IMG/VR virus record: IMGVR_UViG_3300037541_000077
Coordinates: 1-44,101 of that record
Length of the DNA: 44,101 bases
Origin: a virus
Reading direction: 5' to 3' (one strand)
Each line of letters opens with the position of its first letter. Position 1 is the first letter of the stretch. The notes beneath the pieces were generated by a model that worked only from the letters and a program-made list of their open reading frames with translations, was not told the DNA's origin and searched no databases. The position numbers and the translations under genes are program-made. Below, one piece after another: positions 1 through 44,101 of this stretch.

Positions 1-247
1 AGGGACATCCTTCAATGTAGCCAGAAGTTTTGTTATTTCGCTTAGGAGTAAATTCCGATCCTGCAACGAGAGGGTGCCGTTCTCGTAGTAATCTTGTACT
101 AGACTCCAACTCGCTTCTGAGAACTGATTCAAGTTCATAAGCCTGTTGTTCGTCAAAGTACCAGCCATGAAGTTCTTGTTTAGTTAGTATCTCTGCTACC
201 TTGTGCTCTAGCGTGAGCCAGTCAGGTAGGGGTGGAAATGTTTGCAT
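1..247 (-). CDS. DNA polymerase I-like, start of the polymerase part (second frame, runs off the window)
   Basis: This is the continuation of the T7 gp5-like DNA polymerase in the -1 frame relative to the exonuclease ORF at 208..729. Reading from an ATG at 247, it gives MQTFPPLPDWLTLEHKVAEI and goes on to a KRNNKTSGYIEGCP segment, which resembles the region of T7-like polymerases between exonuclease and palm. It stays open to position 1, where one base of a new codon remains. The C-terminal part of the same gene is at 43569..44101. The ATG has no clear Shine-Dalgarno, so this is either the product of a frameshift at 250-256, a separately translated polymerase subunit, or the result of a 1-base sequence error. 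Partial. Confidence 0.8.
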   Translation of the reverse strand, partial: MQTFPPLPDWLTLEHKVAEILTKQELHGWYFDEQQAYELESVLRSELESSTRLLRERHPLVAGSEFTPKRNNKTSGYIEGCP

Positions 248-729
248 AGTTTTTTTGTTACTACAACGTCTTGAACACAGTAATCCTCCATATCTTGAGA
301 CCATTCTTTCCAGTCTGTAGACTTGGCAAATGATCCTTTGTATTCACCCAACCTATACCCGTAGGATTCAAGACTGTGGCGTCCATACATTTGGAGCGGC
401 ATATGTTTCCAGTTATGTTTCCTATCAATATTTAATAGGTCAGCATGATAAAGACGTGATAGCAACAATGTGTCAATAACTACCTCTGGTGGTTTAAACC
501 AGTTATAAAGCTTCTGTATTGCTGGTATGTCATACCCAATGATGTTATGACCGACAATACAATTGGCTTCTTCTAATCTGCTGATACCCCTGACAATAGG
601 CTCTTTACTGCCTTCATCGTTGTATACCACAGTTTGATCATTCTCGTAATCATAGATGACCAGACAGTGAATGCAGGTAAGATCATACAGAAGTCCGTTT
701 GTCTCTAAGTCAAAGATAAGAGAAGACAT
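208..729 (-). CDS. DNA polymerase, 3'-5' exonuclease part (T7 gp5-like)
   Basis: Proofreading exonuclease domain of a family A replicative DNA polymerase, 173 aa in this frame. Visible motifs: Exo I DLETNG at the N terminus (catalytic Asp/Glu), Exo II GHNIIGYDIPA, and Exo III YCVQDVVVTKK near the end, so all catalytic acidic residues lie in this ORF. T7 gp5 is about 700 aa in one chain. Here the frame closes 44 codons after Exo III starts to fade, while the polymerase sequence continues in the -1 frame. The ATG at 729 directly follows the TGA of the small gene at 730..897. Role: genome replication with the primase-helicase and SSB encoded upstream. Confidence 0.9.
   Translation of the reverse strand: MSSLIFDLETNGLLYDLTCIHCLVIYDYENDQTVVYNDEGSKEPIVRGISRLEEANCIVGHNIIGYDIPAIQKLYNWFKPPEVVIDTLLLSRLYHADLLNIDRKHNWKHMPLQMYGRHSLESYGYRLGEYKGSFAKSTDWKEWSQDMEDYCVQDVVVTKKLCKHFHPYLTGSR
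250..256 (-). other. Seven-A slippery site in DNA polymerase gene
   Basis: On the minus strand the exonuclease frame reads ACA AAA AAA CTA, i.e. A AAA AAA in the phase needed for a -1 tandem slip. After such a slip translation continues ACT ATG CAA ACA into the polymerase frame. No obvious downstream stem-loop was seen. A single missing A in the assembly would give the same picture. Confidence 0.55.
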
Positions 730-34839: not shown

Positions 34840-35919
34840 TTAACCGATGATCGGTGCAGTCAAAGCCACAGGAGTGGTTTCAGCTGCAGCAAGATCAAGC
34901 GGGAAGTTGTGTGCATTCCGTTCGTGCATTACCTCAAAGCCAAGACCAGCTCGGTTGAGGATGTCTGCCCAGGTGTTAATGACGTTGCCTTGGTTATCAA
35001 GGAGTGATTGGTTAAAGTTAAAACCATTTAGGTTAAACGCCATAGTACTTACTCCAAGTGCAGCAAACCAAATGCCAACCACAGGCCAAGCAGCGAGGAA
35101 AAAGTGAAGACTACGGCTGTTATTAAAGGAAGCGTACTGGAAGATAAGCCTACCAAAGTAGCCGTGAGCAGCGACAATGTTATAAGTCTCTTCCTCTTGT
35201 CCAAACTTGTACCCATAGTTCTGGCTTTCCGTTTCAGTAGTTTCACGCACAAGCGAGGATGTAACAAGCGAACCATGCATTGCACTGAATAGCGATCCAC
35301 CAAACACACCAGCAACACCCAACATATGGAAGGGGTGCATGAGAATGTTATGTTCGGCTTGGAACACCAGCATGTAGTTAAAGGTTCCCGAAATGCCCAA
35401 AGGCATAGCATCGGAGAACGAACCTTGACCAAACGGATAGACCAAAAATACTGCGGAAGCGGCGGCGACAGGAGCAGAATACGCGACAAAGATCCAGGGA
35501 CGCATCCCTAGTCGATAGCTAAGTTCCCACTCTCGTCCCATGTAAGCATAGATGCCAATGAGGAAGTGGAAGACTGTGAGCTGAAATGGACCCCCGTTGT
35601 AGAGCCATTCATCAAGTGAATTAGCTTCCCAAATTGGGTAGAAGTGTAGTCCGATGGCGTTGCTGCTCGGAATGACGGCTCCCGATATGATGTTGTTTCC
35701 ATAAAGAAGACTCCCGGATACGGGCTCACGGATGCCATCAATATCGACAGGAGGAGCCGCAACGAATGCAATGATGAAGCAGATGGTGGCGGCAAGAAGA
35801 CACGGAATCATCAGTGTCCCAAACCAGCCAATATAAAGACGGTTGTTAGTGCTGGTTACCCAGCCACAAAAACGGTCCCAGTTAGACTGAGACCGAGGAG
35901 CTGCAAGAATAGCAGTCAT
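34840..35919 (-). CDS. psbA: Photosystem II reaction centre protein D1
   Basis: 359 aa, full length and uninterrupted, including the C-terminal stretch that host protease removes ([20 protein letters not shown]). Key segments are present: [17 protein letters not shown] with Glu at residue 130 (the D1:2, high-light type residue), the redox Tyr in [10 protein letters not shown], and the QB-site region. Role: replaces photodamaged host D1 so that photosynthesis supplies energy during infection. It follows the RlpA-like gene by 8 nt, in the late structural block. Confidence 0.99.
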
Positions 35920-36695: not shown

Positions 36696-36808
36696 TACTT
36701 CTTTGGTTTTTTGTTCTGAATCTGTTTGCTAGTTTTAACAGCCTCTTTTTTAGCTGCAGCTTTACCAGCAGGAGTATAAGGATACTCCTTGTTTCCAACT
36801 TTAGGCAT
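36695..36808 (-). CDS. Small basic hypothetical protein, 37 aa
   Basis: Reads MPKVGNKEYPYTPAGKAAAK and ends QNKKPKK. One third of the residues are Lys. Linked to hli upstream and the 79-aa gene downstream by TAATG overlaps on both sides, which argues that it is translated. Function unknown. Confidence 0.65.
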   Translation of the reverse strand: MPKVGNKEYPYTPAGKAAAKKEAVKTSKQIQNKKPKK

Positions 36809-36981
36809 TACCAAATACCGGGGATAATTTGACCAGTCAGCGCGTAAGCACCAATAGCAGCCACGAAGCCAAGCATAGCCAAGCGACCATTGAGTAGTTC
36901 AGCACGTTCGTTGTGAGGCACGGTGTAGTTGTGATCAGTGTACATGGGAGGTTCGATGGGCCAGATGTTAGTGTCGTTCAT
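36808..36981 (-). CDS. hli: High-light inducible protein (HLIP)
   Basis: 57 aa, one membrane helix with the chlorophyll-binding signature ERAELLNGRLAMLGF followed by VAAIGAYALTGQIIPGIW. HLIPs bind chlorophyll and carotenoid in the thylakoid and protect photosystem II and newly made D1 from excess light. Start ATG 36981 overlaps the scaffold stop as TAATG, so it is translationally coupled to a morphogenesis gene. Confidence 0.95.
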   Translation of the reverse strand: MNDTNIWPIEPPMYTDHNYTVPHNERAELLNGRLAMLGFVAAIGAYALTGQIIPGIW

Positions 36982-41988: not shown

Positions 41989-42351
41989 TTAAACGAGATC
42001 AGTAAGATTAGGTGGTTGATAGTTTGGTCCTTTCAGAACCTTGCCGTCTTCACGGCGGATGGGATTACCGTCTTCACCAAGCTTACTCATGTTGCTTTGG
42101 TGTACTCGGTCCATTGCTTCATCTAGATCCCATTCTAGATTAGCAGCGTATTGATAGCAGACATACACAAGGTCTGCTAGTTCTTTCAAACACTCTTCAG
42201 CGTTTCGGGCATAGCCATACAGTAGTTGCTGATCAGCTTCAAGGAACTCTTTGAACTCCTCAACGATCAAACGCTTCTGCATCTCCCGTGAATGACTCCC
42301 AGTACTGTTCGTCACTTGAAAGCCACGGCGAAACTCCTTGGCTTGGCTCAT
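41989..42351 (-). CDS. mazG: MazG-like nucleotide pyrophosphohydrolase
   Basis: 120 aa from MSQAKEFRRGFQVTNSTGSH at 42351; an ATG at 42375 is also possible. The all-alpha NTP pyrophosphohydrolase pattern is present: VEEFKEFLEADQQ (first acidic pair) and EECLKELADLVYVCYQY (second, with E..D). It may hydrolyse dNTPs or alarmones; the cyanophage enzyme's substrate is disputed. It overlaps the DUF3310 gene by about 90 nt and ends 3 nt before the reductase start, in a nucleotide-metabolism block. Confidence 0.82.
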   Translation of the reverse strand: MSQAKEFRRGFQVTNSTGSHSREMQKRLIVEEFKEFLEADQQLLYGYARNAEECLKELADLVYVCYQYAANLEWDLDEAMDRVHQSNMSKLGEDGNPIRREDGKVLKGPNYQPPNLTDLV

Positions 42352-42556
42352 TAAGGATTTCGTTCTCAAGCTCATTTTGTAGGTAGTGGATTGCTTTACT
42401 AAGATCAGCAATGCGAGACTCTTTATGTCCCGCACGGCAGATGTATTTAATGGCGTTGCCTAGATGAAAGTTCAGTCCTTGGTCTCGGATGAAATCCCAA
42501 ACTTGGATAGAACCTCGTCGATAATAGTTGGGTCCTGTTGAGTTGGTGTTGGCCAT
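42260..42556 (-). CDS. DUF3310 family protein
   Basis: 98 aa. Conserved core PNYYRRGSIQVWDFIRDQG, FHLGNAIKYICRAGHKESRI and LSKAIHYLQNELE is the DUF3310 pattern, frequent in phages beside nucleotide metabolism genes and sometimes annotated as nucleotide kinase without proof. It overlaps the NblA-like gene by 85 nt at its start and MazG-like at its end, an unusually compressed arrangement. Confidence 0.85.
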   Translation of the reverse strand: MANTNSTGPNYYRRGSIQVWDFIRDQGLNFHLGNAIKYICRAGHKESRIADLSKAIHYLQNELENEILNEPSQGVSPWLSSDEQYWESFTGDAEAFDR

Positions 42557-42759
42557 TTTTTAACTAAGTTGGACATTGAGTTGCCAAGTACAAAACATTG
42601 GCGTTGGAGTGCCATGAAGATGGTAATGATGTCCTCCTTCTTAGATTCAGGATTCCTTAGAGCATCTTCAATCTGGCGCAGCTTAAACTGCTGCTCCATT
42701 GTTAGTTCAAGTACTGGTGGTGGGGGTCCAAAGAATGATGGATTGGTTGGTAAAGTCAT
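42472..42759 (-). CDS. nblA: NblA-like phycobilisome degradation adaptor
   Basis: 95 aa. Residues 17-70, starting LELTMEQQFKLRQIEDAL and followed by a second helix and NLVKKW, match NblA: the SLEQQF start, helix, turn and second helix, and a positively charged end. Cellular NblA ties phycobilisomes to the Clp protease and causes their breakdown. The longer start at 42759 overlaps the exonuclease gene by 53 nt; the internal ATG at 42699 lies just after its stop. The last 25 residues extend beyond known NblA length. Viral nblA genes have been described from cyanophages; this assignment is by eye. Confidence 0.75.
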   Translation of the reverse strand: MTLPTNPSFFGPPPPVLELTMEQQFKLRQIEDALRNPESKKEDIITIFMALQRQCFVLGNSMSNLVKKWPTPTQQDPTIIDEVLSKFGISSETKD

Positions 42760-43435
42760 AATCGGTGTGCTGAAGGATCTTGGCGAGTCGAGCATTCTGG
42801 AGCGCGACGGATTCATCAAGTTCCTTGCTAGCAAATGCTGAGACAACGGAGGACCAGCTGTAACCGTTCTCTTCAAAGAAGGAGACTGCTCGTTTAATCC
42901 CGAATCCAGGAACTCCGCTATACCCATCAGTTTGGTCACCAGCCAGCGTCTGAATAAGATGCCAACGGTCACCTTCTTCTTTGGTGATTGTGATAACTCC
43001 AGTAGATAAATCATAAAGGTCTCCAGGTATCTGTCTCATATCTTTGTCAGGAGAACAAATGATATGACCCTGTTCTTTAGTAGCGTAGATGCCAAGAGCA
43101 TCGTCAGCTTCTAACTCAGGCATCACAATAACTTGGTAGTCCTCCTTGAGTTTGTTGATGACCCTACGGTAACCGCACGGCTTCTTTCGATTTCTATGTC
43201 CCTTATACGCTGGGTCAATACGTTTACGAAAGTTGATGCTATCAGTAAAAAACAAAATAGAATCATCGAAGCATCCAAGATCTGTTGCGATGTTGAATAG
43301 CTCTCGTTGTACTTTATCGTAGGCTTCACTGAACTTACTTGAGACGACGATAACATCATCTCCCCAGTCGATTTCTGTTTCGGCTGCTGCACAGCACTTG
43401 TAGACGATGTAGTCTGCATCAATCAGGAGACTCAT
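42707..43435 (-). CDS. 5'-3' exonuclease (T7 gp6-like)
   Basis: 242 aa. FEN-type nuclease with the expected acidic clusters: LLIDADYIVYK, YRRVINKL, VMPELEADDALGIYA, CSPDKDM and LAGDQTDGYSGVPGFG (the helix-hairpin-helix start). T7 gp6 (300 aa) removes RNA primers, aids recombination and degrades host DNA. ATG overlaps the stop of the 45-aa gene as ATGA. Directly downstream the NblA-like gene overlaps its end. Confidence 0.94.
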   Translation of the reverse strand: MSLLIDADYIVYKCCAAAETEIDWGDDVIVVSSKFSEAYDKVQRELFNIATDLGCFDDSILFFTDSINFRKRIDPAYKGHRNRKKPCGYRRVINKLKEDYQVIVMPELEADDALGIYATKEQGHIICSPDKDMRQIPGDLYDLSTGVITITKEEGDRWHLIQTLAGDQTDGYSGVPGFGIKRAVSFFEENGYSWSSVVSAFASKELDESVALQNARLAKILQHTDYDFTNQSIILWTPTTST

Positions 43436-43569
43436 TTACCTTGTCCTCGCTTGAGCTTTCGCCCATGCGAAGGAAGACTACGAGTGCCATTACCTTGCCT
43501 GGTGCGTTTAAATTTAGCACGGGATTGAAAGGTAACCTTTCCCAGTGCGGTTTTAGATTTTACTGCCAT
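43432..43569 (-). CDS. Small basic hypothetical protein between DNA polymerase and exonuclease
   Basis: 45 aa, reading MAVKSKTALGKVTFQSRAKF and ending GRKLKRGQGK. Contains TRQGNGTRS, a phrase I remember from small cyanophage proteins of unknown role. Start overlaps the polymerase stop as TAATG and its end overlaps the exonuclease start, which supports translation. Strong positive charge suggests nucleic acid binding (inference). Confidence 0.7.
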   Translation of the reverse strand: MAVKSKTALGKVTFQSRAKFKRTRQGNGTRSLPSHGRKLKRGQGK

Positions 43570-44101
43570 TAGTGTACTTCACTCCAGTTGTTTCCGACCT
43601 TTGCTTCTGCAGCAATCGGGATTCGTAAGTTGTAGTATCGTCCAGCTTCTTCAGCTGAACATACCAGGGATGTTCGTAGTGCGTCCACGTGTCCGGGATC
43701 ACATTCAAATTGTAGTTCGTCATGTACAAAGGCAAGTTGGGAGCAACACAGGTCTTGTGTGTTGTCATGGTTGATCAGCATCCACCGCTTAGCAATTACA
43801 GCAGCCGACCCTTGGAGGAGGTAGTTAAGGGCCTTGTGGCTACCATCAACGCTGCAGCGGCGATTGTCACAGAGATTGATGTAACCAGATTCCGCCTTGG
43901 ACTTAACCGCAGTAACCAGTTTCTCAAGTCCAGGAATTGCATCCAAGTATGCTTGGCGTATCTCCTTGCCTTTCTTACGGGCAGCAGCCTGGGATAATTG
44001 AGGGTCATAACTTAATCCAATTTTTTGATCACCTGCACCATATAAAAAGGCGTAGGTTACAGTCTTTACAAGGCGTCGAGAGATGCCTATTTTATCAGCA
44101 T
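43569..44101 (-). CDS. DNA polymerase, C-terminal polymerase part (T7 gp5-like), partial
   Basis: Open to the window end. Reads ADKIGISRRLVKTVTYAFLY with GAG next: the O-helix/motif B of family A polymerases (R...K....YG). Further on, FVHDELQFECD is motif C with the catalytic Asp of the HDE triad, and the protein ends PIAAEAKVGNNWSEVH like other cyanopodovirus polymerases. The palm motif A region is absent, lying in the part of the gene missing between position 1 and 44101. Belongs with the pieces at 208..729 and 1..247. Confidence 0.93.
   Translation of the reverse strand, partial: ADKIGISRRLVKTVTYAFLYGAGDQKIGLSYDPQLSQAAARKKGKEIRQAYLDAIPGLEKLVTAVKSKAESGYINLCDNRRCSVDGSHKALNYLLQGSAAVIAKRWMLINHDNTQDLCCSQLAFVHDELQFECDPGHVDALRTSLVCSAEEAGRYYNLRIPIAAEAKVGNNWSEVH

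Follow-up and report, generated by a model that had tools for sequence, protein, structure and literature searches.

The IMG/VR virus record IMGVR_UViG_3300037541_000077, whose full 44,101 nt are referred to here as the window, carries a small minus-strand gene of a T7-like cyanophage. Its product is probably a proteolysis adaptor of the type of NblA, the protein that signals cyanobacteria to take down their light-harvesting antennae. This reading is suggested by homology to NblA, a conserved sequence with a two-helix topology, selection on the reading frame and a constant position in the genomes. The gene is a further member of the known viral nblA family, often omitted from genome annotations, rather than the founder of a new one, since the presence of nblA in cyanopodoviruses and the effects of viral NblA have already been published.

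A selected gene that overlaps both neighbours

The initial annotation described an open reading frame squeezed between the exonuclease and DUF3310 genes and overlapping both out of frame, and the arrangement proved to be as described. The coordinates (Table 1) hold one minus-strand ORF with its ATG at 42759, position 42472 being the end of the stop codon, and the translated 95-residue protein is MTLPTNPSFFGPPPPVLELTMEQQFKLRQIEDALRNPESKKEDIITIFMALQRQCFVLGNSMSNLVKKWPTPTQQDPTIIDEVLSKFGISSETKD. The overlap with the upstream exonuclease gene is 53 bp and that with the downstream DUF3310 gene 85 bp, each in a different frame, leaving 150 bp free of both neighbours. This free segment encodes the ClpC-binding-type LTxEQQF motif and the second helix.

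Table 1. Positions of the nblA-like gene, its parts and other genes in the window
Feature	Position	Strand	Basis or remark
nblA-like gene	42472..42759	-	95 aa; ORF, Pfam NblA residues 18-68, PHROG 27006, purifying selection
Non-overlapping part of nblA-like gene	42557..42706	-	residues ~18-67, NblA-like helix pair
C-terminal extension of NblA-like ORF	42472..42556	-	wholly within DUF3310 gene
T7-like 5'-3' exonuclease gene	42707-43435	-	PF02739, phrog_107
DUF3310 gene (nucleotide-kinase-annotated)	42260-42556	-	PF11753 E 1.7e-13; start inside nblA
psbA, photosystem II D1	34840..35919	-	phrog_182 E 5.5e-196
hli-type high-light-inducible protein, ~57 aa	about 36808-36981	-	ELLNGRLAM motif in sequence
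DNA polymerase, 3'-5' exonuclease part	208-729		173 aa
DNA polymerase, polymerase-like part	43569-44099		

The window also encodes a T7-like RNA polymerase, a primase/helicase, a terminase, a class I ribonucleotide reductase and psbA. The co-occurrence of psbA and hli, likewise noted at the outset, was borne out for psbA by phrog_182 and for the hli-type ORF by its motif. The DNA polymerase is apparently split between the two ends of the window, which suggests that the record is circularly permuted; P-SSP7 and S-TIP37 have annotated splits of a similar kind.

Over 56 distinct sequences, parsimony counts for the 150 bp outside the overlaps give 4.4, 1.7 and 11.5 changes per site at first, second and third codon positions, and the NblA-like core is therefore subject to strong purifying selection in the nblA frame. 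The start codon is also conserved beyond codon usage. The ATG sits in conserved Asp-Tyr-Asp (DYD) codons near the 3' end of the exonuclease gene, where TAT followed by GA creates it; 61 of 65 sequences use TAT for this Tyr, against 37% TAT among the other Tyr codons there, a count that carries no P value because the sequences are related by descent. Two phages that lack nblA, 9515-10a and NATL2A-133 (the two examined), have TAC at the aligned codon. A start farther upstream is excluded because a stop lies two codons 5' of the ATG in the sequences L051-L054. The start at internal Met21 given in the S-CBP1 annotation was also ruled out: codons 11-20 are conserved in the nblA frame, as is the ATG of residue 1.

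The small size of the ORF, its overlap with both neighbours and its lack of annotation in many records could all be expected of a spurious, shifted-frame reading between exonuclease and DUF3310. Against this stand the strong codon-position bias in the nblA frame of the 150 bp outside the neighbours, the start codon kept beyond codon usage and orthologues in ~20 distinct phages, so that the probability of a spurious ORF is close to nil; the codon-position test refutes it.

The protein is indeed longer than cyanobacterial NblA, as had been pointed out (95 residues versus about 54-65 in solved chains), but the additional C-terminal residues do not amount to a domain. Residues 68-95 are encoded inside DUF3310. 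Codons 78-94 show 28:85:33 changes at NblA positions 1:2:3 (summed from the codon-position table), and NblA codon position 2 is DUF3310 position 3; because variation thus falls mainly where DUF3310 tolerates it, the conservation of KFGISSETKD is mostly due to DUF3310 (VWDFIRDQGLNFH). Codons 69-73 (WPTPT) still display the constraint pattern of the NblA frame. The tail varies among phages in length and sequence, ending with WPSHHPITPEEQ in S-TIP37 and continuing to SDFTSET in P-SSP7. A new domain having been ruled out by the codon-position test, the C-terminal extension is best read as a by-product of the overlap, and overlap with neighbouring genes largely accounts for the tails beyond the two helices.

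Relationship to cyanobacterial NblA

The gene had been called NblA-like from an LTMEQQF motif and a helix pair, and both were found again, in the sequence and in the AlphaFold model. The Pfam NblA profile (PF04485) matches residues 18-68 of the window protein over profile positions 1-49 of 50 (22.7 bits, E 1.4e-4), well beyond the motif and across essentially the full domain. That said, the score falls just below the curated cut-off of 25 bits, so the proposed profile search succeeded in alignment and E value but not by that threshold. Relatives do exceed it (S-TIP37 at 27.9, L086 at 25.5 and L059 at 25.4 bits), and the profile matched 41 of 41 aligned relatives at E values of up to 1. Judged by sequence, the window protein is NblA-like through orthology to members above the cut-off, not a curated Pfam member itself.

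Other comparisons point the same way. With an HMM built from only the three crystallised NblA sequences (the crystal-NblA HMM), the window protein scored 14.5 bits, a value that none of 20,000 shuffles reached (best 12.4); among the window ORFs the nblA-like one ranked best, scoring 12.9 bits when taken from stop to stop, and every other ORF remained at or below 4.4 bits. Profile-profile alignment to NblA with hhalign gave a probability of 83.6% (P 8e-6, 29% identity over 48 columns). PDB sequence searches with the window protein returned only a weak NblA match (E 0.028 and 0.068). With S. elongatus NblA as the tblastn query, 50,697 phage records yielded five weak matches (E 0.2-0.3), including the same slot in S-SRP01 and S-TIP37; the NblA genes of Ma-LMM01, PaV-LD and MaMV-DC were not recovered by this search.

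Residue conservation agrees with the profile matches and the two-helix topology in upholding the proposed homology. The LSxEQQF-type N-terminal motif appears as LTMEQQF in the window, and EQQF is present in 54 of 56 relatives; L65 never varies, and 40 of the 56 have K at residue 67. We take residue 67 to align with Lys-53 of Anabaena NblA. Overall, the window protein and cyanobacterial NblA (PF04485; 1ojh, 2q8v, 2qdo, 3cs5) have in common the two-helix core, the N-terminal motif and about 50 aligned residues, but they are distant, and the N- and C-terminal additions of the phage protein fall in the gene overlaps.

AlphaFold places helices at residues 21-35 and 41-68 of a helix-loop-helix monomer with disordered tails, and a core-only model has the same helices. 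Confidence is moderate, with mean pLDDT of 71.5 for the full-length and 74.9 for the core-only model and values below 55 in the C-terminal extension. The suggested comparison with solved NblA structures thus gave the expected two-helix topology, but a Foldseek search with both models did not list NblA among its matches. Such searches have difficulty with short helical hairpins, and we read the miss as a probable lack of sensitivity rather than as a refutation, structural agreement with NblA reaching no further than the topology.

A scan of genome contigs gave no cellular homologue; it produced two matches, both in the metagenome-assembled genome MAG TMED88. These are probably cyanophage contigs binned with that MAG, since 30 of its relatives are without NblA. 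The protein encoded at 1492-1818 of the L088 contig of MAG TMED88, possibly a phage contig, is 108 aa long; it starts with an NblA domain (30.3 bits, over the cut-off), and its C-terminal tail is long and acidic.

Distribution and annotation among cyanophages

By tblastn the nblA-like gene is present in 37 records from cyanophages and uncultured marine phages (two unrelated weak matches left out), whose recorded hosts are Synechococcus or Prochlorococcus. Wherever checked, it lies between the exonuclease gene and DUF3310, MazG or RNR genes, the location of nblA in cyanopodoviruses, in the window and isolates alike. Absence from close relatives would have counted against the gene; instead, orthologues occupy the same slot across many T7-like cyanophages. 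The nearest named relatives, DSL-LC07, S-CBP1, S-CBP3 and S-CBP4, are T7-like cyanopodoviruses with the same slot and presumably carry the same gene as the 14 cyanopodoviruses in which Nadel et al. 2019 predicted nblA (as reported in PMC9602691). The window phage is uncultivated and distinct from DSL-LC07, its protein being 76% identical over 84% of the length.

Departures from this pattern occur. The exonuclease gene of 9515-10a and NATL2A-133, which lack nblA, directly overlaps the next gene (DUF3310), an empty site. In nblA-lacking phages (9515-10a, L101 1686) the DUF3310 ATG lies inside repeated exonuclease DYD codons, near the nblA start site of nblA-bearing phages, so one overlap site seems to be used regardless of which gene comes after the exonuclease. 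P-GSP1 has a diverged version in the slot, which the family HMM scores at 26 bits. In S-RIP1 (L100, HQ317388.1 33668-36166), nblA is frameshifted after the first helix and split over two frames, which may represent a sequencing error or a pseudogene; an extra ORF (RefSeq: HNH endonuclease) lies between the split nblA and DUF3310.

The expectation that automated callers miss or truncate the gene is borne out in practice. Six phages (DSL-LC07, S-CBP3, S-SBP1, S-RIP2, NATL1A-7 and S-TIP37) have no annotation for it, and in S-CBP1 and S-CBP4 its start is misplaced. Window residues 21-95 match the entire profile of PHROG 27006 (function label: unknown; E 6e-40), and as that profile begins at internal Met21, it appears to have been built on truncated gene starts of the NblA-like family.

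Hosts and function

NblA is a helix-loop-helix protein that forms four-helix dimers and links ClpC to proteins of the phycobilisome (PMC7966870); the conserved motif at its N terminus is directed to ClpC and a C-terminal motif to phycobiliproteins (PMC4103541). By analogy, the phage protein would dimerise and bind at two places, to the host chaperone ClpC through its N-terminal LTxEQQF segment and to phycobiliproteins through the C-terminal half of helix two. In the infected cell, ClpC and the Clp protease would then dismantle phycobilisomes, which would release amino acids and reduce light capture, to the presumed benefit of the phage, while phage PsbA and Hli would maintain photosystem II. 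Such NblA-like action is the most likely one because the N-terminal motif and the invariant L65 are kept.

The nearest isolates (DSL-LC07, S-CBP1, S-CBP3 and S-CBP4) infect Synechococcus, so the host of the window phage is likely Synechococcus. The initial annotation had taken the gene to indicate a host with phycobilisomes; a Synechococcus host makes this likely, but the gene alone is not proof, since orthologues occur in P-SSP7 and NATL1A-7, phages of Prochlorococcus, which has neither phycobilisomes nor nblA (PMC7439483). The P-SSP7-type orthologues (46 distinct) are also under purifying selection, with 3.4, 1.6 and 8.1 core changes at codon positions 1, 2 and 3. Their median score with the crystal-NblA HMM is 6.4 bits versus about 14 in the window family, they have EQDL or EQDF in place of EQQF, and 31 of the 46 carry E or D at residue 67, differences in which loss of the NblA signature is confounded with phylogeny. 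The Pfam NblA scan gave no match in the members from P-SSP7, P-SSP2, NATL1A-7 and P-GSP1, nor in that of the Synechococcus phage S-B28. Because the Prochlorococcus-phage members give no such match, the family may not share a single function.

These divergent members, together with the window protein's score under the curated cut-off and the missing Foldseek match to NblA, might favour a small helical protein specific to phages and not related to NblA, whose first helix begins with LTxEQQF by chance. Such an origin is nonetheless improbable: the match covers nearly the whole 50-position NblA profile, relatives pass the cut-off, shuffles fall short of the score, and published work assigns nblA to cyanopodoviruses.

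A somewhat stronger, though still unlikely, alternative for the window is that an NblA-derived Clp adaptor has kept its ClpC-binding half and now hands host ClpC targets that are not phycobiliproteins, other photosynthetic proteins for instance. In its favour, no part of the protein is better kept than the N-terminal motif, purifying selection persists in the P-SSP7 clade on hosts without phycobilisomes, and the acidic residue 67 of most P-SSP7-type proteins replaces the K usual in the window family. The window, however, belongs to the Synechococcus-phage group and keeps both halves, and phycobilisome-bearing hosts make the simpler target likely. For P-SSP7 and its relatives the idea is less far-fetched, if still doubtful: the adaptor may have been kept where the host has neither phycobilisomes nor nblA and redirected so as to supply ClpC with other host proteins, with drift in the residues that bind phycobilisomes but not in the helix pair or the reading frame.

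Action on phycobilisomes, the preferred reading for the window protein, has precedent among viruses. Viral NblA leads to less phycobilin or degraded phycobilisomes, and viral nblA from marine metagenomes was found active by Nadel et al. 2019 (both as reported in PMC9602691). The NblA genes of the freshwater cyanophages Ma-LMM01, PaV-LD and MaMV-DC, also viral and tied to phycobilin loss (PMC9602691, PMC4103541), belong to other phage types, and cyanopodovirus genes cluster apart from freshwater cyanophage NblA in published trees (PMC9602691). According to Nadel et al. 2025 (Nature 648:434-442), as cited in PMC12892361, viral NblA reduces oceanic photosynthesis, with an estimated cut in oceanic cyanobacterial light capture of up to 5% globally. 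Counts of the phages that carry this small overlapping gene would gain from its correct annotation and from a label for PHROG 27006, and the Prochlorococcus-phage orthologues raise a testable question, namely what role an NblA-like protein plays in cells without phycobilisomes.
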